Below, piece by piece: positions 1-9,070 of a stretch of DNA of 64,000 bases (the stretch's first letter is position 1; each line of letters opens with the position of its first letter). Under the pieces are notes generated by a model. The model was not told the DNA's origin. It did not search any database and was given only the letters and a program-made list of their open reading frames with translations. The position numbers were made by a program, and so were the translations under genes. The stretch is taken from the NCBI RefSeq assembly GCF_900109705.1, contig NZ_FOAI01000013.1:1-64000 (forward strand), read 5' to 3'. This DNA is from Roseivivax marinus. Its GTDB lineage: Bacteria; Pseudomonadota; Alphaproteobacteria; Rhodobacterales; Rhodobacteraceae.

Positions 1-11
1 GAAACTCTCAT
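1..11 (-). CDS. start of an unidentified gene leaving the left edge
   Basis: An ATG at 11 reads leftward (M-R-V...) and is preceded by GAGAGGAG six bases upstream, a good ribosome binding site. Only three codons are visible, so no function can be given. It follows the integrase fragment on the same strand and is probably part of the same element. Confidence 0.3.
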
Positions 12-34
12 GGGTGGCTCCTCTCACATGCAGA

Positions 35-208
35 TCATGACACCTGCACTATGGCGCATCGCGACGCCGGGGAGCAGGAGCCATCCACCCCATCGTCTTC
101 CCAGAACTTGGGGCCACCACGCCACGCGTAAAAGTGAAAGCGGCTCTTGCCGTTCGCCAGCTTTCGCCGAATGCGATGGACACCTTTAGGCAGATCACCT
201 TGCCGCAC
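35..208 (-). pseudogene. N-terminal fragment of a phage-type integrase
   Basis: This 57-residue frame begins at a GTG (206-208) with GGAGG seven bases upstream (216-220), a better start than the TTG further out. Residues about 5-34 (L-P-K-G-V-H-R-I-R-R-K-L ... Y-A-W-R-G-G-P-K-F-W) match the SAM-like N-terminus of tyrosine recombinases found in rhodobacterial prophages. After W-E-D-D the likeness stops, and the frame ends about 300 residues short of a normal integrase. No continuation was found in the other two frames inside the window. It overlaps the end of the upstream small gene by 14 bases, as expected in a prophage operon. I infer a truncated integrase; a short functional DNA-binding peptide is the alternative. 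Confidence 0.5.
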
Positions 209-401
209 GGTTGGTCCTCCACTTTTCAAGCGGGGTCATGTGTGGCTTGGCAGCATCGCCACCGGTCCCGGCCGTGATTTCGAACCGCTTGCCCTCGGCG
301 GTCTCCACGACGATCGACACATGTTCATAGCCCGCAGCCTTGGCGGCCTCAAACACCGGCGACAGATCGGACTTGCGAAACTCTGCAGAGCGACGCTCCA
401 T
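195..401 (-). CDS. small conserved-type prophage protein, function unknown
   Basis: This 68-residue protein has an N-terminal amphipathic helix (A-A-K-A-A-G) followed by a short strand-rich part (V-S-I-V-V-E-T ... F-E-I-T-A-G). Small proteins of this design often sit just upstream of integrase genes in rhodobacterial prophages. Its ATG overlaps the stop of the preceding gene as TAATG, and its 3' end overlaps the integrase fragment. The three genes therefore look translationally coupled and belong to the integration and regulation module. No enzymatic motif is visible. Confidence 0.6.
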   Translation of the reverse strand: MERRSAEFRKSDLSPVFEAAKAAGYEHVSIVVETAEGKRFEITAGTGGDAAKPHMTPLEKWRTNRAAR

Positions 402-991
402 TAGTTTGCCCCTACATCAAGAATGCGGACAGCCGCTCTCGGTAATTTATCTACCACTTTCTTTGCGAAGAACGGCAAATCCAACGAAACCACGGGCTGA
501 CCGATCCGAGGATCATTTTGTTCGACGCTATCCCGCCATTCATCGAGCGAACCGCCAAACCAGCTAGAACCATCACCCCAGAAGAACGCAGATCGTTTAA
601 AAATAATATTTCCATACCAACCGAGATCATTCGCTCGCTCTTGGTAAACCTGCCGAACGGTATAGAGGTTAATGTCTTCTTGCGAAGGCTCGGGGATGGT
701 GCAGGAAGCGGTCAAGTCACCTTTTATGCAGCCATTGCAATGGAGAGCGAAATAAAGAGCGGCTTGAGAAACGATTTCGCTGTCATGCCAAGCTCTTTTC
801 GGACCGATATTCAGCCCAGCAACCTCCTTAACGAAGCTCATTTGGAGCAACACGTCGATCTCGTAACTTGGTTTTGGTCCCATAGGAGGAAGAAACTCTG
901 GGAACCGCCGTCTATGGTCGCGCTGCGTGACCAGGTCCATGGCAGTTATGCGTGCTGCCTCTCTGGCAGTGAAAGATTCAAACTTGATCAT
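401..991 (-). CDS. putative HTH regulator with unknown C-terminal domain (mobile element)
   Basis: This 196-residue protein starts at the ATG at 991, behind GAGGGG. Residues 6-30 (F-T-A-R-E-A-A-R-I ... Q-R-D-H-R-R-R-F) look like the first part of a MerR/excisionase-type winged helix, in which a T-x-x-E-A-A-x-I segment precedes Q-R-D-x-R-R-R. The remainder (about 40-196) has several aromatic residues and no motif I recognise. It heads the short operon that ends in the integrase fragment, so a repressor, activator or excision role is the natural guess. The region is visibly less GC-rich than the chromosome to the right. HTH identity is moderate; function is inferred from position. Confidence 0.55.
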   Translation of the reverse strand: MIKFESFTAREAARITAMDLVTQRDHRRRFPEFLPPMGPKPSYEIDVLLQMSFVKEVAGLNIGPKRAWHDSEIVSQAALYFALHCNGCIKGDLTASCTIPEPSQEDINLYTVRQVYQERANDLGWYGNIIFKRSAFFWGDGSSWFGGSLDEWRDSVEQNDPRIGQPVVSLDLPFFAKKVVDKLPRAAVRILDVGAN

Positions 992-1214
992 GCGCACCCC
1001 TCTTGGCGTGAGAGACACCACGCAGATGACGGCGTGGCAACCACCACGCAAAAATTTCTCGAAGCATAGTCACTTACTGCGAGGATGCATCATCAACAGC
1101 TGCAGCACTCAGAACAGCGACCATGCAGAAGAGCTCCGCGACAGTCTTGTCGATGTGTCGCCTAGAGTTTATCCCTGCCAACGGTGCTAGTAATGGTGCG
1201 AGACGCAAAGATAG

Positions 1215-1793
1215 ATGAACTTATTTTTAGACCACACCTCTCTTAGAAAATCGGCTCGAGCAGCTTTTATTTCGTCGATAACGCTAATAATCGTTCATGG
1301 CTGTGTAGCAGAATTCTCCAGTATCGGCCTTTTAGGCCTCCCTGTAAGGTTCTCGCTTCAAGACTTACAGAGACTGGCACTGTTTGTTCAGATTTTTTAC
1401 TCTGTTATATTTTTCTTCCGCGCTTATGAGCTCAATTTCCGACACCATATAGATGAGCTACAGGAGAAGGCTGATGAACGCAAAAAAAAGAGAAGTGAAC
1501 TACATGGCGCTAAATACCGCGAACGAACGCCTCCTTTAGAAATTATTCTCAAAGACCAAAAGGCACCTCCAGAAAAGCGTGAAGAGGCACAAGAGTTGCG
1601 GAAGAAACAGAGCGCTTTTCGCAACGCGGCGGTCGAAAAGGACACTAGGCGCATTACAATCCTCCTATATTGGCAAATTGCGTTATTTTTTCTCATTGAA
1701 ATAATAGCCCCGGCAATCACGATCGTGGCTGCATGGTCCTCCCTTTGGCTTGAATGCGTGGCCGCAGTGATATGCGCCTCTAACTTTCCTTAG
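1215..1793 (+). CDS. membrane protein with charged central helix, element cargo gene
   Basis: I do not recognise this 192-residue protein. It has hydrophobic segments at about 16-36, 52-70 and 149-186, separated by a highly charged K/E/R-rich stretch (about 75-145) likely to be a cytoplasmic coiled coil. It is the only plus-strand gene in the element, lies between the convergent portal gene and the divergent HTH gene, and is clearly more AT-rich than its neighbours. A hairpin with a T-run follows it, so it is probably its own transcription unit. Autonomous genes like this in phages and satellites (morons) often encode superinfection exclusion or defence proteins. That role is inference only. 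Confidence 0.7.
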   Translation: MNLFLDHTSLRKSARAAFISSITLIIVHGCVAEFSSIGLLGLPVRFSLQDLQRLALFVQIFYSVIFFFRAYELNFRHHIDELQEKADERKKKRSELHGAKYRERTPPLEIILKDQKAPPEKREEAQELRKKQSAFRNAAVEKDTRRITILLYWQIALFFLIEIIAPAITIVAAWSSLWLECVAAVICASNFP

Positions 1794-1811
1794 GCTTGTA
1801 CATATTCATGA

Positions 1812-1857
1812 CCGCCGCTTATACCTGAGGGGCATAGGCGGCGCGCTTCAATTTTTT
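1812..1857 (+). terminator. rho-independent terminator after the cargo membrane gene
   Basis: An imperfect stem (CCGCC... paired with ...GGCGG, 1812-1843, with a TATACC/GGCATA inner part) is followed by ATTTTTT at 1850-1856. It lies 19 bases after the stop of the plus-strand membrane gene and separates it from the convergent portal gene. Confidence 0.6.
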
Positions 1858-1913
1858 GACTGAAGTCACCAGTTGTCGGTGACTCTTCGGGCTCATGCCG
1901 AGGCGCGTCCCGC

Positions 1914-2978
1914 CTATTCCTTCCAATCGACCATGCGCATGGCCCCGGACACATCGCCCCGCGGAATGCCCGCCTCTTTCGCCTCGGCCATCGTCTTGAT
2001 GATCGTGGACAAAGCGCGGGCGCGTCCGCCTGCATCGAAGGCTTGCAGTGGGCGGATGGTGTCAATTTCCACCAACCCACCGAGCTTGGTTGATGCCTCA
2101 TCGGCCAGCAGCGCAGCGATGGGTTGTAGCGCCCAGATTGCGAGCTGTCGTTGCGCTTCCCTGACCGCCGGGCCGGTGGTGGCGCGGTTCACCAATGACG
2201 GTAGGACGCCATAGGCCATTAGGATGCCTTCGCGGGCCGCTGCCAGCGTCTCGGCCGTCATGCTTTTGGACAGGTCTGGCGAGAGCTGGTCGGGCTTCTG
2301 TCCGATCTGGGGGTTCATGCCCGCCGCAGTCGCCTGCGCGACACCCTCGATCACCAGCGTGGAGCCGCGCCGCCCTCGGAACGCACCGCGCATCGAGGCC
2401 ATGTCCTCAGCCCCAGTGTCCGGCAGGGGCACGATCTGAGAGCCGAGCGGGGCATTCTCAAAGGTCTCGCCGAGGGCCGATTCCACCGCGTGGAGCATGG
2501 CCCCGGTGAGGCTGGACCGGCGCAGCGGGGCCGTTCCGATCCACGGGGTCAGGTTGTCAGAGCCGATTCGAAGGTGCAGAACCTCTGCCGCAAGCGCGGT
2601 GACCGTTCGTCCGCCGCCCGCCTCTGGGATGGACAGGCGGTAGGCGCGCGGCTTGCCATCGCGGGTGGTCACGTCCCAATCCGTCGCCGGGACAAGCCCC
2701 AGCTCAGTGATCAGGTAGACCGCCTCGCCGTTGAGCGCGGCCGAACGGGCAATCATCGCCATCATCTGGCGGGTTAGCAGTTCGGTGCCGGACACGTCCG
2801 CCATAGCGAACCCGCCTTCCCAAAGGCTGACACAGCTCTGCACCGTCGCCGTAAGCTCGGCCACGCCGCGCCGCCCGCTGATGAAGCTGTCCCGCGCCAC
2901 CATGACCTGGGCGGTATAGCCGGACCCGCTGGACCTTGCCTCGATCGGGCGCAGCTTGTTCATGAGCCATCCGAGCAT
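1914..2978 (-). CDS. phage portal protein (HK97 family)
   Basis: This 354-residue protein matches HK97-family portals, which form the dodecameric ring at the capsid vertex through which DNA is pumped. Recognisable parts are the N-terminal M-L-G-W-L segment, a central beta-rich wing region, and the helical stem and crown with the Q-K-P-D-Q-L and G-V-L-P-S-L-V-N signatures near residues 245-280. The start at 2978 is chosen over a GTG at 2990 because GGAGGTGACC sits immediately before it. It is about 50-70 residues shorter than typical HK97 portals. It is the last gene of the head operon, two bases after the protease stop. Placing portal after protease and capsid reverses the lambda/HK97 order. 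Confidence 0.88.
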   Translation of the reverse strand: MLGWLMNKLRPIEARSSGSGYTAQVMVARDSFISGRRGVAELTATVQSCVSLWEGGFAMADVSGTELLTRQMMAMIARSAALNGEAVYLITELGLVPATDWDVTTRDGKPRAYRLSIPEAGGGRTVTALAAEVLHLRIGSDNLTPWIGTAPLRRSSLTGAMLHAVESALGETFENAPLGSQIVPLPDTGAEDMASMRGAFRGRRGSTLVIEGVAQATAAGMNPQIGQKPDQLSPDLSKSMTAETLAAAREGILMAYGVLPSLVNRATTGPAVREAQRQLAIWALQPIAALLADEASTKLGGLVEIDTIRPLQAFDAGGRARALSTIIKTMAEAKEAGIPRGDVSGAMRMVDWKE

Positions 2979-2980
2979 GG

Positions 2981-3559
2981 TCACCTCCACCGGATCGCGG
3001 CGGGGCGGTACGTCAGGCGCTTCGCCACCTCACCAATGGGTTGCCAGTTTCGAGCCTCGATCTGGGCTTGCGGATAGGCGGGTTTCGTGACGGCGCTTAT
3101 CTCGATCAGGTCTGCCGCCTTGATGGTCCGCAGGATCGCGGTGCCACGTTCCTCGACCGTCTCGCCGCCCGGCCGGACGCGGAAGTCGGGAGACAGGCCC
3201 CGCACCAGCCCGGCCGAATGGGCCGAGAGGAAGTCCCGGACATAGCTTACCTGGCCCATATCGGCGCTGATTGTCGCTTCCACGGTTAGGGCATCGTCGG
3301 TTTCGGTAAGGGTCAGGGTGCCGGCCGAACGCGAGGCCAGTGGCTTGTTGAAGTCATGGCCGGACAGAAAGTGCACGTCCTCGCCGCGCTCGATCCGATC
3401 TGCGAAGGCACGGGCTGCGATCATCTCACGACGCTCACGGCCCATGCCCACGCGCTCGGCAAGCACGGTTTCCCGGCCATAGGGGAAGGTTGCCCGAAGG
3501 CGGGTTTCCCCGCCCTCGGTGCGCAGCTCAAGGCTGCCGACATGAGCGCCCCAGAGCAT
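2981..3559 (-). CDS. HK97-family prohead protease
   Basis: This 192-residue serine protease would mature the procapsid by removing the capsid scaffold (delta) domain. Visible family features are G-H-D-F-N-K-P-L-A-S-R-S-A-G-T-L around residues 68-83 (catalytic His and nearby Ser), G-L-S-P-D-F-R-V around 128, and I-S-A-V-T-K-P-A-Y-P around 161. The start is the ATG at 3559, which shares its A with the capsid stop codon (TAATG); the longer upstream reading frame is a shadow of the capsid gene. This coupling suggests co-translation with its substrate. Confidence 0.88.
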   Translation of the reverse strand: MLWGAHVGSLELRTEGGETRLRATFPYGRETVLAERVGMGRERREMIAARAFADRIERGEDVHFLSGHDFNKPLASRSAGTLTLTETDDALTVEATISADMGQVSYVRDFLSAHSAGLVRGLSPDFRVRPGGETVEERGTAILRTIKAADLIEISAVTKPAYPQAQIEARNWQPIGEVAKRLTYRPAAIRWR

Positions 3560-4833
3560 TACGCCCCCGCGTCCAGTTCGAGGTCGGTCAGCAGTTCGAG
3601 CTGGGCCGGGCGCGCCACGGTCACGTCCATCGTCGCCAGCGCCGTGATCCGAAGCCCGCCGGACTGCGCATCGCTGTAGGGGTCGCGGATCATGTCCACC
3701 GCTCCCCATGCGCCGATAAAGATCGGGGCCACGCCGCCTGCCGCGGTGGTCAGCAACGCCGAGGTGGCAAGCGGATTGCCGGCCGGCGCAGCAAGCGCAT
3801 TGTTCGTCATGGCGATGTTTGCCGAGGGCAGGTTCTTCACCAGGCGGTCCCACTCGGACACCGCCGTGCCGTCTATCAGCGCGCTATCCAGGAAGTCCCA
3901 CAGCTCCGGACGGATCAGCGCCCGCACTGCGTCCGGGGACGCGGCGGCGTTGGAAGTCATGAACCGGGTGACAGCCGAGCGGAACGCACCCCAACTCGCC
4001 AGCGCGGTCACGGCCGTGGAGGTGATGCCGTAGGTGGCCGCGCCCGCGATGACGCCGAGCGGCTGGCCGTTGGCCCCGGTTCCCAGGAACGCCGCCTGAT
4101 CCATCGCCGCGCCCATGGCCCCGCTCATGTCTCGGCGCACCGCCTGTTCCAGCGCCGCGCCAGACTGTTTGAGCGTCTTGCGCGTGATGCGCATCTGAAT
4201 GCCGAGGTTGTGGTCTGGCGACATGGCCCGATCAGTCGTGGCATAGGTCGACGGCCCGGCCACGTTGGCCGTCTCGCCATCCGCCCAGCCCGCTGTGACG
4301 GCCGAGGTGGTCACCGGCCATTCCACTGCGCCCGCGTCGATGCTGATCATCTGCGCCCCCATGCGTGCCGCAACGCTGTCCGGGAACAGGCGCTCGATGA
4401 TCGGACGTGTCTGGACCGGGTTCGGGGTGCCGCTGGCGACGGTTTCACCGGCCCGGACTTCCAGAGCCTGCCACGGCACGGGAATGCCCCGGAAGCCGCC
4501 CGCGCTGCGCAGCTCGGACACGATCTCGGCCGTCTGACCGTCGAGCTGGCGCCCCTCATCGAGAGCCAGCGCGACCTGACGCATCTCGAAACCGGCCATG
4601 AGGTCGGCCCATTCCTGAGCCGTCCGGGTTTCCAGTTCGCTGCCTGCGTCCCGGCGTTCGGCATCTTCCGCGATCAGGGCAGCGCGATACCGCGTTTCGT
4701 TGGATCGATATTCACAATCCATCGTGTCCATCTGGCGGATTTCGTCCTCGGATGGTGTTTCCTTACCGGCCAGCTCGGAAAGGTTCTGGCGGATTTCGCT
4801 TTGCCGCCTGGCGATATTCACAGACTCGAGCAT
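3559..4833 (-). CDS. major capsid protein (HK97 family)
   Basis: This 424-residue protein has the HK97 layout. Residues 1 to about 105 are charged and helical, a delta/scaffold domain expected to be cut off by the adjacent protease. The mature shell domain follows, with the typical P-I-I-E-R-L-F, G-W-A-D-G-E, L-G-T-G-A-N-G-Q-P-L-G-V and R-P-E-L-W-D-F-L segments. The last part (about residues 360-420) has the strand pattern of the A domain. AAGGA precedes the ATG. It lies three bases downstream of the HNH gene and overlaps the protease start, so it is mid-operon. Confidence 0.92.
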   Translation of the reverse strand: MLESVNIARRQSEIRQNLSELAGKETPSEDEIRQMDTMDCEYRSNETRYRAALIAEDAERRDAGSELETRTAQEWADLMAGFEMRQVALALDEGRQLDGQTAEIVSELRSAGGFRGIPVPWQALEVRAGETVASGTPNPVQTRPIIERLFPDSVAARMGAQMISIDAGAVEWPVTTSAVTAGWADGETANVAGPSTYATTDRAMSPDHNLGIQMRITRKTLKQSGAALEQAVRRDMSGAMGAAMDQAAFLGTGANGQPLGVIAGAATYGITSTAVTALASWGAFRSAVTRFMTSNAAASPDAVRALIRPELWDFLDSALIDGTAVSEWDRLVKNLPSANIAMTNNALAAPAGNPLATSALLTTAAGGVAPIFIGAWGAVDMIRDPYSDAQSGGLRITALATMDVTVARPAQLELLTDLELDAGA

Positions 4834-4836
4834 CGG

Positions 4837-5175
4837 TTATCCTTTCTGCTCAAAAGGGGTTTTGCCGGGTCGCGAAAGCGACTCGACGGCTTGCCGCCAA
4901 TCTCGGCGGTCCTCTCGGGGCGGGGGGTGCCCGCACTCGATCCTCGTTTTTCGGGTGTGGCAGCCGGGGCAAAGCGCCTGGAGGTTGCCGGTCTCATACG
5001 ACAGCTCGGGGTGCGTCCTGACCGGCTTGATATGGTCGACCTCGAGCCGGCCCCCGCAGCCGCAGGAGCGGCAGCGGTAGTGGTCGCGTTCAAGGATCTC
5101 CGCGCGAAGCGCCTTCCAGCGTTTGGTGCGCGTGACATGCCTAGAGTGGCGCTGATGTTCCTTGCGGATGCTCAT
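4837..5175 (-). CDS. HNH endonuclease (packaging-associated)
   Basis: This 112-residue protein carries a zinc-type HNH domain: C35-x-x-C38, the D-H pair at 47-48, Asn64 in E-T-G-N-L-Q-A-L-C, and C69-x-x-C72-H73. Small HNH proteins next to terminase genes (HK97 gp74 type) assist terminase in cutting DNA at the packaging site. Its ATG overlaps the stop of the head closure gene (ATGA), and it ends three bases before the capsid gene. A homing endonuclease is the alternative, but its position inside a tight head operon favours packaging. Confidence 0.9.
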   Translation of the reverse strand: MSIRKEHQRHSRHVTRTKRWKALRAEILERDHYRCRSCGCGGRLEVDHIKPVRTHPELSYETGNLQALCPGCHTRKTRIECGHPPPREDRRDWRQAVESLSRPGKTPFEQKG

Positions 5176-5516
5176 GCCACGCCACCACTCTGAGCGGTGA
5201 CCTCAAGAAAGCCCCGTTCACCCGGAACCTCTTTAATGCCATCGATCTCATAGCTGACGCCCTCATGGACCAAGCGATCGGTTCGAGCGATGCTGCGCCC
5301 GAAAGCCGTCGCGCGGATGATGAAACGGCTGACCAGCTTGTTGTCCCAAGCGCCCGCGCTAACGCGCTCGGCATCGGATACGTCCCGCCGCCGAGCGAAG
5401 ATCGCGGAGCCGTAATCCGTCCAATCGCCAATGGCACCGCCAAGGCCATCGGTGTCGGTCTGGACGTAGCGGCGGATTTGAATGCGCCGGTCTAGGCTTC
5501 CAGAGTTCAGAACCAT
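5172..5516 (-). CDS. head closure / head-tail adaptor protein
   Basis: This 114-residue protein starts M-V-L-N-S-G-S-L-D-R-R-I-Q-I, the usual opening of SPP1 gp16-like head closure proteins. It continues with D-G-L-G-G ... W-T-D-Y and R-F-I-I-R, and ends in a beta-rich segment with G-V-S-Y-E-I-D-G-I-K-E-V. The family forms a ring below the connector, seals packaged DNA and provides the tail docking surface. The start at 5516 overlaps the end of the terminase gene by 10 bases; a longer frame upstream is a terminase shadow. In a tailless element this protein would be the interface to a borrowed tail. Confidence 0.82.
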   Translation of the reverse strand: MVLNSGSLDRRIQIRRYVQTDTDGLGGAIGDWTDYGSAIFARRRDVSDAERVSAGAWDNKLVSRFIIRATAFGRSIARTDRLVHEGVSYEIDGIKEVPGERGFLEVTAQSGGVA

Positions 5517-7222
5517 GCCATCCTCGCTTTCGTCTGGGGTTGAGCTGCGATCCGCGCGCCTTGCGCGACGGCCAGAACGGAAGCCGCTGCCGCGTCGATC
5601 CGGCCAGTGGCACGAGCTTTCGCGAGCTTGAGATTGTTGGCCGGGTCGCGCAGGCACACCGCGTCCGCGAAGGCCGAGCGCAACAACAGTGACGGCCGGG
5701 CCTTAACCAAGCCGTCAAAGGCGGCGCGGCGGAACCGCTCGCAGTCTTCGCCACCGTCCCGGAATCCCTGCCCGCGCCAGACGCATGGGGCGCGGACACC
5801 TGCCCGGGTCAGTGCCTCGGACAGCTCGGCCTGTTTGTAGCGGTCCATCGTGATCGCAGTGACGTGCTCGCCTTCGACGTTGCGCATCACCTCGGCCAGC
5901 CAAGGCGCAACCGGCACCGTCTTGTCACCGAGCACGGTCAGCTCACCACGCTCCTGCATTTCGACGTATCGCCCGGCCACGCCGTCCGACTGCCCCCTGT
6001 CCAAAAGGCCGGGCATGGACGGGAAAGTGCCGAGGCATTCGAGCCGCCCGGTCTGGGGCCAGTAGAACGCTGCCGCCGTCATCGAGGCCGAGCCGCCGAG
6101 GTCGATGCCGATCACAACCCCGCCCTCGCGGGGCGGCAAGGCATCCGTTTCGCAGGCCAGCCACTCATCGAGCGTGATCAGCAGATCGCGGGACTCGCCG
6201 GACACGCGCTCATTCCAATTGTAGAGGCGGAAAGATGTGAGGCTGGACCCGCCGCGCGCAATCGCCCGCTTGGCTTGGGCTTCCAGCCATTCCAGAGAAC
6301 CGCCGATGCCGTGCGGTGCACCGGGGTTGGCGATCAGCAGGCTTTCGGGGTCATCGGCGGGCCGGCCTGGCGCAGGCCGATGCTCTTGAACGTATGACCC
6401 AGGCACAGGATCGTCGATCCACCGAGAAAATGGGTGGGTGTCGTCGCTGGCTGATGTGCTGATCAGGAACGAACGTCCGCCGCGCTTGCCGAGCCCGGAC
6501 AGCAGGGCATGTTCGAGTTCATCGCCGCGGTCGAGCGCCCAGTGCCCACGCTCATCAAGGATCGCCATTGTCGGCGCACCGCCGAGGGCGGACTTTCCGT
6601 CGGCAGCGATCACGCGCAGGACATGCCCGCCGCAGTCGCCTTCATACTCGATCTCAAGACGCGGAGCCCGGCGGTAGATCAGGCGACGCCGCAGCTCGGA
6701 CGGCAGGCTGGCCGCAAACCCGGCCACGAAGTCCCAAATGATGCGGCCCTGATCGCGCGTCCGAGCGGCCGCGATAATTTCCCGCCGAGGCTGGCGATCC
6801 CACACACCGAGCAGGCCGCCGAGCGCGAGGCCTGCCGTGATCGCAGATTTGCCGTTGCCGCGGCCAATGCTGAGAACGGCGGCTGCCGTGTCTGAGGCAA
6901 GCGCGCCCTCGATGAAATGGCTTTGAAACGGCGCGAGTTGAACCGGCTTGCCCGCATTCGGACCTTCGGGAATAGCAAGTCCATGCAGGAAATGCATAGC
7001 TCGATCGGCCGGGGCCGTCAGGCGCTCATCCAACTCGGGCGCGAAAAGAGAAAACTCACACACACGGTTTCCCGCATGCCCAGGAATTGCGGCATTGGGA
7101 CCATCTGAGAAAAGGTTGCGCTGACGCGGATCGTTTGCCGGCAGAATGGCTGCTTCGGCGATGGGGTCGAGCTTCGATCCATCTGCCTTTCGCCACTGCC
7201 TCGCTTTCGCCTTCTCGCTCAT
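5507..7222 (-). CDS. terL: terminase large subunit
   Basis: This 571-residue packaging motor and nuclease has a Walker A loop G-R-G-N-G-K-S at about 120-126 and Walker B with catalytic Glu at 221-224 (I-L-D-E). A coupling motif I-S-T-S-A follows at about 254. The C-terminal RNase H-like nuclease begins at V-I-G-I-D-L-G-G (Asp374), with further acidic residues in I-T-M-D (about 455). Length and order fit lambda/HK97-like TerL. It precedes the head closure gene with a short overlap. Upstream is a 371-base stretch without a convincing gene but with a strong hairpin. Confidence 0.92.
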   Translation of the reverse strand: MSEKAKARQWRKADGSKLDPIAEAAILPANDPRQRNLFSDGPNAAIPGHAGNRVCEFSLFAPELDERLTAPADRAMHFLHGLAIPEGPNAGKPVQLAPFQSHFIEGALASDTAAAVLSIGRGNGKSAITAGLALGGLLGVWDRQPRREIIAAARTRDQGRIIWDFVAGFAASLPSELRRRLIYRRAPRLEIEYEGDCGGHVLRVIAADGKSALGGAPTMAILDERGHWALDRGDELEHALLSGLGKRGGRSFLISTSASDDTHPFSRWIDDPVPGSYVQEHRPAPGRPADDPESLLIANPGAPHGIGGSLEWLEAQAKRAIARGGSSLTSFRLYNWNERVSGESRDLLITLDEWLACETDALPPREGGVVIGIDLGGSASMTAAAFYWPQTGRLECLGTFPSMPGLLDRGQSDGVAGRYVEMQERGELTVLGDKTVPVAPWLAEVMRNVEGEHVTAITMDRYKQAELSEALTRAGVRAPCVWRGQGFRDGGEDCERFRRAAFDGLVKARPSLLLRSAFADAVCLRDPANNLKLAKARATGRIDAAAASVLAVAQGARIAAQPQTKARMAWF

Positions 7223-7593
7223 CTTCTCGCGCCTGTCTCTATATTCAACCGTTACTCAGTTCCCACCTGCTCAATGGTGAGGTTCGGAGCGAAGGGCATA
7301 GGTCGACTGCCCACAGCGCGCGGCTGTGGCAGTCCCTACGCCCTCCGCGTGAAGTCCTGCTCAACGGAGCCGGTCCATCGCTTTGGGCCCGTCCGGTCAT
7401 GCGCTCCTGCCGGTCGGTCGGTTGCTGCTTGCGACACCGTGAGCGCGGTGCCGGGGATCGGGCCTCAACCTTTCGGACTGCCCTTCGCCTGTGATCCCGC
7501 CCGTGGTAGGCTTTTCCTTGTGGTGCCACCGTTGCTGACCCGAACCACCACTTCGGCCCTGCGCATCGAGTGGCGCGCAGGGTCGCCGTTTGC
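7223..7593. other. 371-base stretch upstream of terL without a clear gene
   Basis: This is the only sizeable break in an otherwise overlapping head operon. Frames on both strands read as Arg/Pro/Ser-rich peptides without protein character, except for one 66-codon candidate at 7397-7597 listed separately. It contains the 12-bp hairpin at 7305-7333. A packaging recognition site or RNA element is plausible by position. Confidence 0.4.
7305..7333. repeat. 12-bp-stem hairpin upstream of terL
   Basis: GACTG(C)CCACAGC and GCTGTGGCAGTC pair over 12 bases with one bulged C and a GCGC loop. No T-run follows on either strand, so it is not a standard intrinsic terminator. It is about 80 bases upstream of terL in transcription order. 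Candidate roles are a cos/pac recognition element or a structured leader in the operon mRNA. Confidence 0.55.
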
Positions 7594-7597
7594 TCAT
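7397..7597 (-). CDS. doubtful 66-residue open frame between unknown gene and terL
   Basis: The ATG at 7597 overlaps the stop of the upstream gene (ATGA), matching the coupling seen in the rest of the operon, and the frame runs 66 codons. The peptide is rich in Arg, Gly, Ser, Gln and Pro, with no hydrophobic core and no resemblance to a known small terminase. It could be a diverged, disordered accessory protein or chance. The overlap is its only support. Confidence 0.22.
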   Translation of the reverse strand: MSKRRPCAPLDAQGRSGGSGQQRWHHKEKPTTGGITGEGQSERLRPDPRHRAHGVASSNRPTGRSA

Positions 7598-8031
7598 TCC
7601 TCGATCAGTTGAAGCTCTGGGCCGTCGAACATTTCGGCCACCAGGCGAAGCATGACGTCTCGCTGACGCTTGGTAGGGCGCCAGCCTCGCTGCTTCGCTC
7701 TTTGAGCCATGCCGGCCGCAAAGCGTTGATCCCACTCGGTCGAACCGTGGCGAGAGAGAAAATCCATGTGTGCGAGGAGCTCGTCATCGCAGCGTCGTGG
7801 AAGCGTTTCATCGCTCTTATGCGTAGCGATCTTGGCTCTCGGGAAGCTCCGTCTCGCGAGGACGAGAATGCGCGCTTCGCAGAATTGCTGCGCTGCCTTG
7901 CGATCCGCCCTTCGAATTTCGGTTTGCTTTTGCAAAGGAAAGGTTCTGAGAATTGCCTCTGGCAGAAACACAGGTTCGGCCAAGGCGAACGCTTCTTCGA
8001 TCGAGTGCGGCGCGACCATGCAATCCGTCAC
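7594..8031 (-). CDS. phage protein of unknown function (small terminase by position?)
   Basis: This 145-residue protein starts with an ATGA overlap on the end of the connector gene. The middle is helical and basic (residues about 45-75, R-A-D-R-K-A-A-Q-Q-F-C). The C-terminal W-R-P-T-K-R-Q-R-D-V-M-L-R-L segment resembles the DNA-proximal helix of many small phage proteins. It lies two positions before terL, where a small terminase subunit would be expected, but I see no clear HTH of the usual TerS type. I call it unknown, with TerS as a positional hypothesis. Confidence 0.6.
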   Translation of the reverse strand: MTDCMVAPHSIEEAFALAEPVFLPEAILRTFPLQKQTEIRRADRKAAQQFCEARILVLARRSFPRAKIATHKSDETLPRRCDDELLAHMDFLSRHGSTEWDQRFAAGMAQRAKQRGWRPTKRQRDVMLRLVAEMFDGPELQLIEE

Positions 8032-8576
8032 AACTGCACCCCACGATATCTGGCGCTCACGCGCGCCATGTGCGGCGACGTGGTGAGGCTCTTTGCGTCC
8101 ATCGGGGACCGGCCATCATAGTGCAGCGCGGCCTGATCCATGAGCGCTTGTGCGAGGTCTGACGGGACGTCCGCAGCCGCGTTCCCGAACCCGGCCTGAT
8201 ACTCGATTGTCAATCGGCCTGGGCTCAGATCGTGATAGCCCGCTAGCCAACGGATGCAGGGCCGATTGCCCCCAACCAATTCAAATGCAGTGAACAGCTC
8301 GCCATCGACGGTCACGGTCGGAACCGCATCGAAACTGACGGGGCCAATCGGTAGGTTGAGCCAGCTCGACCTTTCCGGATCGAAAACCGTCACCCTGATT
8401 GTCTGGGTCAAAAGCGCGATCTGTGCGAATTGCTCGATCTCTGCCGCGGCTGTCTCCCCCATGTTCCGAATCGCGTCGTCTTCCGCGTCATCGAGCACCC
8501 TCAGGTGTGTCTTGAGATCATTAAGGACGAAGGGCAGCGCGGCGCCGCCGGCAGTCCGGTGCACAAGCATTTTCAT
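8028..8576 (-). CDS. gp6-like head-tail connector protein
   Basis: This 182-residue protein has the HK97 gp6/YqbG pattern: an N-terminal L-N-D-L-K-T-H-L-R-V-L with acidic D-D-A-E-D-D, then I-E-Q-F-A-Q-I-A-L-L-T-Q-T, a central R-V-T-V-F and P-V-x-F-D-A strand set, and a C-terminal helix P-S-D-L-A-Q-A-L-M-D-Q-A-A-L-H-Y before a proline-containing tail. The family forms the ring attached to the portal. It overlaps both neighbours by ATGA junctions. Placing the connector at the front of the operon, far from the portal, is unusual. Confidence 0.85.
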   Translation of the reverse strand: MKMLVHRTAGGAALPFVLNDLKTHLRVLDDAEDDAIRNMGETAAAEIEQFAQIALLTQTIRVTVFDPERSSWLNLPIGPVSFDAVPTVTVDGELFTAFELVGGNRPCIRWLAGYHDLSPGRLTIEYQAGFGNAAADVPSDLAQALMDQAALHYDGRSPMDAKSLTTSPHMARVSARYRGVQL

Positions 8577-8902
8577 GCCGCCGTCTCCATTTCGCTGATG
8601 TGCCGGAAGAACGCCGCCTGATTCTCCGCGCTCATGGCCTCGAAAGATGCGAGCGCGTATGCCTTGAGCTCGCAGCGGCTGGCATAGGAAGCCCAGAGTC
8701 TGGCTTCCTCCATGCCGCCGAGAAAGGAAGGCAGTGGCGGGCCAGCCGAACCGATGGACACTGCCGCGGTCAATTCGGCGTCGTCGGGCTTGAGCGAATT
8801 CAAGGCAGAGAATGCAAGCGCGGCGCGTTCGGTCTCGGTTAAGCGAACCGCGGCGACGAAGCTGCCGAGCATTCGCGACATGCGCTTGTGCTCGGGCTTC
8901 AT
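8573..8902 (-). CDS. first gene of head operon, function unknown
   Basis: This 109-residue protein is largely alpha-helical (A-A-V-R-L-T-E-T-E-R-A-A-L-A-F-S-A-L-N and A-R-L-W-A-S-Y-A-S-R-C-E-L-K-A-Y-A). A Gly/Pro hinge (about residues 51-64) lies between two helical parts. Its stop overlaps the gp6-like gene start. No Shine-Dalgarno stands out before the ATG at 8902; an ATG at 8881 is possible. Its position at the operon head next to the attachment site fits a packaging or regulatory accessory factor, but there is no motif to assign it. Confidence 0.6.
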   Translation of the reverse strand: MKPEHKRMSRMLGSFVAAVRLTETERAALAFSALNSLKPDDAELTAAVSIGSAGPPLPSFLGGMEEARLWASYASRCELKAYALASFEAMSAENQAAFFRHISEMETAA

Positions 8903-8932
8903 GAAGCGGCCGAGGCTAGACCCGCCCTTTCG

Positions 8933-8993
8933 GTTTACAGTAAGCGCGTAACCGTTTGATTTCTGACACCCCTCAACAGGGGGTCGTTTACAG
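8933..8993. repeat. two GTTTACAG direct repeats flanking a GC hairpin near the att site
   Basis: GTTTACAG occurs at 8933-8940 and 8986-8993. Between them GAC(A)CCCCT and AGGGGGTC (8965-8985) can form a hairpin with a CAAC loop. The repeats lie 31-84 bases from the tRNA-Cys remnant, inside the element. This is where arm-type integrase or excisionase sites, and the promoter of the leftward head operon, would be expected. The repeats are visible; the role is inferred. Confidence 0.35.
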
Positions 8994-9023
8994 CTTTGTG
9001 CAGTGTTGTCAGAGGCGTCCGGA

Positions 9024-9070
9024 GGATTGCAAATCCGTGTACACCGGTTCGATTCCGGTACTCGCCTCCA
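9024..9070 (+). other. tRNA-Cys 3' half, probable attR of the integrated element
   Basis: These 47 bases match the 3' half of a tRNA-Cys(GCA): anticodon loop T-T-GCA-A-A between GGA and TCC, variable region, T-arm CCGGTTCGATTCCGG, the 3' acceptor strand ACTCGCC, then T-CCA. No matching 5' acceptor strand (GGCGAGT) or D-arm lies at the right distance upstream; that side is element sequence. A tRNA broken at the anticodon stem, with phage genes on one side and chromosomal genes on the other, is typical of tyrosine-recombinase integration. An intact tRNA-Cys should lie at the other end, outside the window. Confidence 0.8.

Follow-up and report, generated by a model that had tools for sequence, protein, structure and literature searches.

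Can a phage head and its packaging machinery, carried without a recognisable tail on an island at a tRNA gene, live as a satellite on the tails of other phages? This question is raised by the first 9,070 bases of a 64,000-nucleotide stretch of Roseivivax marinus DNA (contig NZ_FOAI01000013.1 of assembly GCF_900109705.1, here C27; the whole stretch is called the window), in which an earlier reading of the letters alone (the sequence-only reading) had seen the lifestyle of the capsid-forming phage-inducible chromosomal islands (cf-PICIs). Our analysis supports that view: the R. marinus island very probably works like a cf-PICI, as a capsid-forming satellite that would borrow the tails of helper phages, a combination of own head and borrowed tail that we infer here from genes alone. 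The evidence lies in the anatomy, boundaries, narrow size and conservation of the island and its relatives, in the lack of a recognised tail module and in what appears to be a repeated exchange of the proteins at the head-tail interface. The cassette lies on the minus strand and runs, from the right, through orf109, gp6, orf145, the terminase large subunit (TerL), Hc1, HNH, capsid, protease and portal; small genes follow, and the start of an integrase gene lies at the left end of the window. The features of the island, with open reading frame abbreviated as ORF and insertion sequence as IS, are the following.

1..92, no strand: end of the IS that splits the integrase gene, common to the start of contig C21 (sequence identity, terminal motif, duplication)
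97..229, minus: N-terminal piece of a tyrosine integrase, about 45 amino acids, abutting the C39 piece in the frame of relatives
C39:about 95-1028: remainder of the integrase, frame-broken (phrog_216 and phrog_1 integrase matches)
195..401, minus: orf68, a small protein of 68 amino acids beside the integrase; homologs in 5 of 100 first-round loci
401..1051, minus: orf216, variable-slot gene; homologs in 4 of 100 loci, no Pfam or PHROG family match
1215..1793, plus: orf192, cargo ORF oriented against the other genes; of 100 loci only one, the near-identical L043, has it; Pfam and PHROG gave no match
1914..2990, minus: portal protein (PF04860, E=2.1e-13)
2981..3559, minus: head maturation protease, open frame to 3853 (phrog_80, 7.7e-23)
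3559..4833, minus: HK97-type major capsid protein (PF05065, 6.6e-17)
4837..5175, minus: HNH endonuclease (PF01844, 6e-10; phrog_144, 1.1e-21)
5172..5657, minus: head closure protein Hc1, conserved part about 5172-5519 (PF05521, 1.7e-13; phrog_25, 1.4e-14)
5507..7222, minus: TerL (phrog_9, 2.9e-59; PF20441, PF03354)
7223..7593, minus: conserved noncoding structured element, a candidate RNA or structured origin (nhmmer, covariation)
7594..8031, minus: orf145, conserved part the C-terminal 75 or so amino acids by aligned query ranges
8028..8576, minus: gp6/gp8-like head-tail connector (TIGR02215, 6.7e-20, 71.6 bits against a cut-off of 39; phrog_442, 4.6e-20)
8573..8902, minus: orf109, first gene of the cassette
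9024..9070, plus: right attachment (att) site, a 47-bp copy of the tRNA-Cys 3' end

The head and packaging operon described from the letters alone was confirmed by Pfam for the portal, capsid, HNH, head completion protein, TerL and gp6-like connector, and by PHROGs for the protease. The latter also matched NCBIfam TIGR01543 (2.3e-15) with 57 bits, just below the curated cut-off of 59. The supposed helix-turn-helix gene did not hold up: it is orf68, which has no Pfam, PHROG or NCBIfam match. AlpA, regulator and replication genes were not recognised in the window copy and are present in relatives. A structure model of orf109 was helical and weak (pLDDT 69.7), and a role as small terminase was not adopted because the model is too weak.

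We then located both ends of the island. The window is contig C27 from its base 1, and the island is therefore cut by the assembly at an IS. Window bases 1-102 are 99% identical to C21:1-102, where they open that contig; contig C39 starts with a terminal motif that resembles them, and across the C27/C39 break 4 bp are directly duplicated, as an IS insertion would leave. The left end of the island was found on about 1 kb of C39, with the remainder of the integrase followed by an intact tRNA-Cys(gca) (C39:1103-1176). The tRNA-Cys 3' half noted earlier at the right end (window 9024-9070) is identical to this tRNA at 46 of 47 positions, and the integrase fragment noted at the other side is the N-terminal piece of a gene whose rest stands on C39. 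Because the two integrase pieces abut at one base in the intact 359-amino-acid integrase frame of relatives (e.g. L051) and the att copies lie on C39 and C27, the island without the IS measures about 9,982 bp. The leftward extension that the sequence-only reading had called for thus reached the second tRNA-Cys copy with no tail module before the left att site: what lies between it and the window is the integrase remainder and the tRNA, plus the IS that the assembly lacks. An assembly-truncated full prophage was rejected once this left end was found. The genes outside both att copies looked ordinary and chromosomal by eye.

The island belongs to a family. Capsid relatives were present in 42 of 394 genomes of the same taxonomic family (E<=1e-20), in 95 confirmed IMG/VR contigs (98 pattern matches to the capsid; 80 kept) and in 241 confirmed genome-collection contigs (294 pattern matches to a 22-row capsid alignment; 80 kept). 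Among the sources given by the records are Roseovarius, Ruegeria, Phaeobacter, Thioclava, Rhodobacter capsulatus, Hyphomonas, Ponticaulis, Erythrobacter, Sphingobium, Aurantimonas, Jiella and Chelativorans, in part as metagenome bins; carriers with a strain name include R. capsulatus DSM 1710, Ruegeria pomeroyi SZCCDBG043 and Phaeobacter marinintestinus UB-M7. An 8.7-kb IMG/VR viral contig (L043:1-8708) is near-identical to the R. marinus island, and some genomes hold several members at different sites (L221, L223 and L258 in Roseovarius sp. SP300; L123 and L137 in G330). Wider draws gave a capsid match at E<=1e-15 in 7 of 385 genomes of the class and 12 of 398 of the phylum. Ten contexts from these draws contained the cassette in three cases (L268, L269 and L273) and a fragment at 47% in one (L271); the remaining six had capsids of 24-31% identity. 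The more distant capsids of L265, L266 and L267 (24-27%) are accompanied by protease matches, with TerL matches in L265 and L266 and tRNA genes near L265 and L267; these loci may be either further satellites or tailed prophages. No near capsid was found in 50,697 annotated phage records (best 27%), and the best TerL identity to annotated phages was 26-27%; the head proteins are thus not nearest to those of annotated tailed phages, and the second condition under which the sequence-only reading would have been refuted did not come about.

To delimit the relatives we used 114 context loci, some of which represent the same genome in two collections. An exact repeat overlapping the tRNA 3' end was found in 66 of them; 80 loci had full flanks, and these included 61 with a tRNA att repeat and 8 with some other repeat, 25 bp or longer, at 9-12.5 kb. 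After merging duplicates, 55 unique tRNA-bounded islands remained, which occupy 13 tRNA kinds and have a median length of 10,209 bp (standard deviation (SD) 462), with 54 of the 55 between 9.3 and 11.2 kb. As a control across loci, the repeat of one locus was sought in the left flank of another that uses a different tRNA; 22 of 1217 trials gave a shared piece of 14 bp or more. Three capsids that are only 27-28% identical to the R. marinus capsid likewise belong to islands bounded by repeats, 10.4-10.8 kb long. If the head sets the length of the genome, sizes this uniform would be expected. The longest island, L156 (12.1 kb), contains IS66-type transposon genes (L156:4176-6566).

Gene content was compared over 66 unique bounded elements, which include L244, a plasmid-like contig described below. 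By tblastn, TerL, protease, portal and HNH were each present in all 66, and the capsid is in all 66 by construction, the elements having been found through it. Gene calls gave capsid 66, TerL 65, portal 65, protease 64, integrase 63 and HNH 32; the lower counts, such as that of HNH, are caller artefacts, since tblastn recovered TerL, portal, protease and HNH in every element. Intact integrase frames of 359 amino acids are present in relatives, and orf109 was called in 30 of the 66. The other ORFs were scanned with profiles in two sets: 20 loci supplied 120 of their 130 ORFs, and 128 of another 197 cluster representatives followed, most of the remainder being short or part of the earlier set. 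They matched integrases, helicase/primase genes, replication initiators, excisionase, AlpA, MerR, an IS66 copy and closure proteins; for the 120 ORFs of relatives the matches listed include one AlpA, four excisionases and six phrog_906 primases. No tail module appeared among the best 25 of 78 and the best 25 of 57 PHROG families or the best 25 of 34 Pfam families, nor in a second Pfam scan of the cluster representatives (all 20 families at E<=1e-5). The earlier statement that the 9 kb hold no tail gene agrees with the profiles, which recognised none in the window island. Defence cargo is not claimed: PADLOC gave five weak families on the 120 ORFs (best E 3.5e-06).

These results bear on whether the island could be a self-sufficient minimal agent that makes tail-less particles without a helper or hides a tail of its own among its unrecognised ORFs. 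Several cargo ORFs do match no family, and the host genome has no tape measure by PF10145, which would suit such an agent. However, its conserved connector and closure proteins suggest the attachment of a tail, and about 10 kb leave little room for the tail module of a siphophage. We consider this explanation unlikely.

The head-tail interface exists in two forms. By tblastn, the gp6 connector is present in 28 of the 66 elements and a different protein, X179, in 34, with both in none and neither in 4; the closure protein is Hc1 in 19 and Hc161 in 17, again never both, and neither was recognised in 30. The gp6 connector goes with Hc1 in 18 elements and X179 with Hc161 in 17, X179 with Hc1 in one and gp6 with Hc161 in none. 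X179 has about 179 amino acids, lies between protease and portal (e.g. L138:11258-11797) and has no sequence match in annotated phages. The first six PDB matches of its structure model (pLDDT 87.6) are all phage neck or portal-complex chains, the best at E=1.7e-3 with a TM score of about 0.42 and none at E<=0.001, a weak but consistent indication that the predicted fold is phage-neck-like. On a capsid tree (a quick tree with gene-call labels), the connector type changed at least 7 times (mean 20.2 with shuffled labels) and the closure type at least 6 times (mean 12.2). The nearest phage proteins to Hc1 are those of Paracoccus phage Pthi1 (42%), Agrobacterium phage Rivra (41%) and Paracoccus phage Shpa (37%), and the nearest to Hc161 are from Stenotrophomonas and Pseudomonas phages (36-38%). 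If the satellites capture the tails of different helpers, the interface on one kind of head should be exchanged repeatedly, as these labels suggest; a similar pattern would arise from two old sublineages between which few exchanges took place. A single capsid core that accepts either of two interface sets would amount to a natural experiment on which tail fits which head.

A satellite of this kind could also take its tails from a resident gene transfer agent (GTA) rather than from a phage. The connector falls in TIGR02215 and the closure protein in PF05521, which we take to be the families of g6 and g7 of the Rhodobacter capsulatus GTA (RcGTA), and one member resides in R. capsulatus DSM 1710. 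Against this, the R. marinus genome has no match to PF09343, presumably a GTA tail family, which does match in a Caulobacter control, and the nearest closure proteins are in Paracoccus and Agrobacterium phages, a comparison made in a phage collection, where GTA loci are not expected. A GTA as tail donor is very unlikely in our judgement.

One relative appears to exist outside the chromosome. L244, a contig of 10,436 bp from Gemmobacter serpentinus HB-1, carries the head genes and a 96-bp end repeat; because its ends overlap in this way, it is probably a circle of 10,340 bp, and its record gives a length of 10340 and a coverage of 941. In L244 we found no homolog of the window's integrase and no tRNA piece, the long att repeats did not match it, and a PDB search identified no replication protein. 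An excised attP circle is not supported, as the window-type integrase, long att repeat and tRNA match are all missing, though L244 may have an integrase of another type. L244 is possibly a satellite plasmid outside Vibrio.

The breadth of the family also bears on two further explanations. The island might be what is left of a complete tailed prophage from which the tail and lysis genes disappeared at this site, and the integrase, split by an IS and frame-broken, would fit such decay. This is highly improbable given that all 66 unique bounded elements repeat this layout and size, that 55 of these sit at 13 tRNA kinds, in records from Rhodobacteraceae, Ponticaulis, Erythrobacter, Jiella, Chelativorans and others, that relatives retain intact 359-amino-acid integrase frames, and that no annotated tailed phage has a near capsid. 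That the locus is a domesticated, non-mobile head kept for the use of the host is barely credible: its head genes are strongly conserved, but the spread is patchy (42 of 394 genomes), the tRNA sites are many and different, and one member, L244, is probably a circle.

The region of about 350 nt between orf145 and TerL (window 7223-7593) is noncoding and conserved. nhmmer collected 75 element rows over the fetched loci, duplicates included, and their alignment divides into two types. In type 1 (21 rows), 58 pairs were predicted, of which 19 changed on both sides, with 16 of 1218 cells unpaired and a consensus energy of -76.8 versus -20.9 for shuffled columns (SD 4.0; reverse strand -68.8). In type 2 (27 rows), 37 of 83 pairs showed double changes, with 73 of 2241 cells unpaired and an energy of -110.0 versus -23.5 (SD 6.0; reverse strand -81.3). 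In the joint alignment, 14 of 27 pairs covary. Other values argue against a strong claim of structure: the window element alone lies only 1.7 SD below its shuffles; for single sequences, against mononucleotide shuffles, the median is -2.6 SD on the forward strand and -2.0 on the reverse, the forward strand being lower in 36 of 48; and the joint energies are near-equal on the two strands (forward -17.9, reverse -16.8). Rfam 15 gave no match in the first 12 kb of the window or in the L184 element.

By blastn among phage records, the element was found in Shpa only, and type 2 had no match. The Shpa stretch (L274:5501-5765) is 68.5% identical to the element and follows the helicase and primase genes of that phage. 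Shpa was excluded from the original consensus; with the consensus recomputed on an alignment that includes it, Shpa keeps 59 of 60 type-1 pairs, 12 of them double-changed. Rfam gave one microRNA model on Shpa, far below the gathering score. Among the 66 elements, 20 contain the structured element: 19 of the 23 with orf145, none of the 21 with a helicase/primase gene and one with neither (Fisher 1.7e-8 on the gene-call table of 19/4 versus 0/20, a test that ignores relatedness). orf145 never stands alongside a helicase/primase gene in the 66. Type 2 matched by blastn in 6 of 388 genomes of the family. One of these six, G065, lies outside the 42 capsid carriers and has orf109 (49%), orf145 (60%) and the element side by side (L277:9174-10151), with no head gene found within the 20 kb fetched; L277 may be a remnant or a different sort of satellite. 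L156 holds a second orf109/orf145/element stretch (about L156:18900-19715) apart from its capsid. A packaging RNA tied to TerL was considered and is weakened by the L277 and L156 stretches. We read the element as part of a replication-linked module that would be common to the satellites and their helpers; it is less likely to be a cohesive-end region or to act as a packaging RNA.

Taken together, an intact member of the family would excise from its tRNA gene on cue through its own integrase and then replicate. It would build a small head from its own capsid, protease and portal, and its own terminase would fill this head. Its connector and closure proteins would close the head so that the tails of a co-infecting phage could attach, and a helper of the gp6/Hc1 type might resemble the Paracoccus phages Shpa or Pthi1. 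For replication, members that have orf145 and the element may depend on the helper, and others would bring their own helicase-primase. Going further, the family could be an independent, old radiation of alphaproteobacterial satellites, in one branch of which the orf109/orf145/element module, its element common to a Shpa-like phage, takes the place of replication genes in the satellite and binds it to its helper, the interface being swapped as tails change; we put this forward tentatively, as possible rather than probable.

Several observations count against the view that the R. marinus island is a cf-PICI-like satellite. The scan of the family for tails is not exhaustive, and two tail-named matches came up: an 86-position 'tail fiber' profile, placed by position on an 87-amino-acid ORF inside L152, and about 120 of 752 positions of a tape-measure profile on a 243-amino-acid cargo ORF (L242:13590-14321; phrog_8892 and phrog_19914). 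The first profile matches in 17 of 44 genomes searched, and its two other best loci fall in none of the islands compared; neither match is a tail module. No small terminase (TerS) was recognised in the window by Pfam, PHROG or NCBIfam, 11 of the 80 full-flank loci have no att repeat by the criteria used, and L277 shows that orf145 and the element are not specific to head-forming islands. The integrase of the R. marinus copy is interrupted by the IS and also has a frame break on C39, so that this copy looks immobile and is probably stuck; its head genes are open frames. Finally, the host genome offered no candidate helper by PF10145 (tape measure) or PF09343, nor a second connector by gp6 or PF05135, these being single-family tests that could miss other helper types. 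According to PMC11389934, the cf-PICI EcCIEDL933 was mobilised at detectable frequency by none of 17 resident prophages.

We found no paper on head-encoding satellites of Rhodobacteraceae or on tailless tRNA prophages of Roseobacter; literature on cf-PICIs in Rhodobacter and on capsid-forming satellites in Alphaproteobacteria led to work on a Pseudomonas phage and on Streptomyces. The family may already be inside published cf-PICI sets; it is a large and little-described group of likely virus parasites in alphaproteobacteria. In a survey of Rhodobacteraceae prophages, the taller length peak lies at 10-15 kbp, 22 calls were reassigned to GTAs, and the word 'satellite' is absent from the main text (PMC8224337). 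Head-only satellites of 10 kb might account for some of the elements in this peak. Marine phages and GTAs have one of their main testing grounds in the roseobacters and related bacteria and, if our interpretation is true, tail capture becomes testable in tractable strains among the named carriers.

How does the family compare with known systems? The Paracoccus phages Shpa and vB_PthS_Pthi1 resemble it in the closure protein (37-42%) and, for Shpa, in the structured element, but they are complete tailed phages of 38-40 kb with capsids that are not near the island's. GTAs have tails and lack an integrase and att sites, whereas the R. marinus island has an integrase and att sites and no recognised tail; its connector and closure proteins are of the same broad families as those of RcGTA. 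The capsids of an E. coli cf-PICI and of RcGTA cluster in a structure-based tree (PMC12846349). The Streptomyces satellites MulchRoom and MiniFlayer likewise encode capsid and packaging genes (PMC10690885), but have virulent actinophage helpers and direct terminal repeats. L244 resembles the Vibrio satellite-plasmids termed cf-PISPs in having head genes on an episome with no tail recognised, and differs from them in that its head genes are those of the alphaproteobacterial family; elements like the cf-PISPs are reported in other Vibrio species and in none outside the genus (PMC13230959). From the cf-PICIs, which are widely distributed across Bacteria (PMC10690885), the family differs in its length of about 10.2 kb versus an average of 14 kb (PMC10803314), in the R. 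marinus island's lack of a recognised TerS and in the structured element beside TerL in a subset of members; it shares with EcCIEDL933 and its like a capsid, protease, portal, connectors, HNH and terminase, and the lack of a recognised tail (PMC10690885, PMC13230959).

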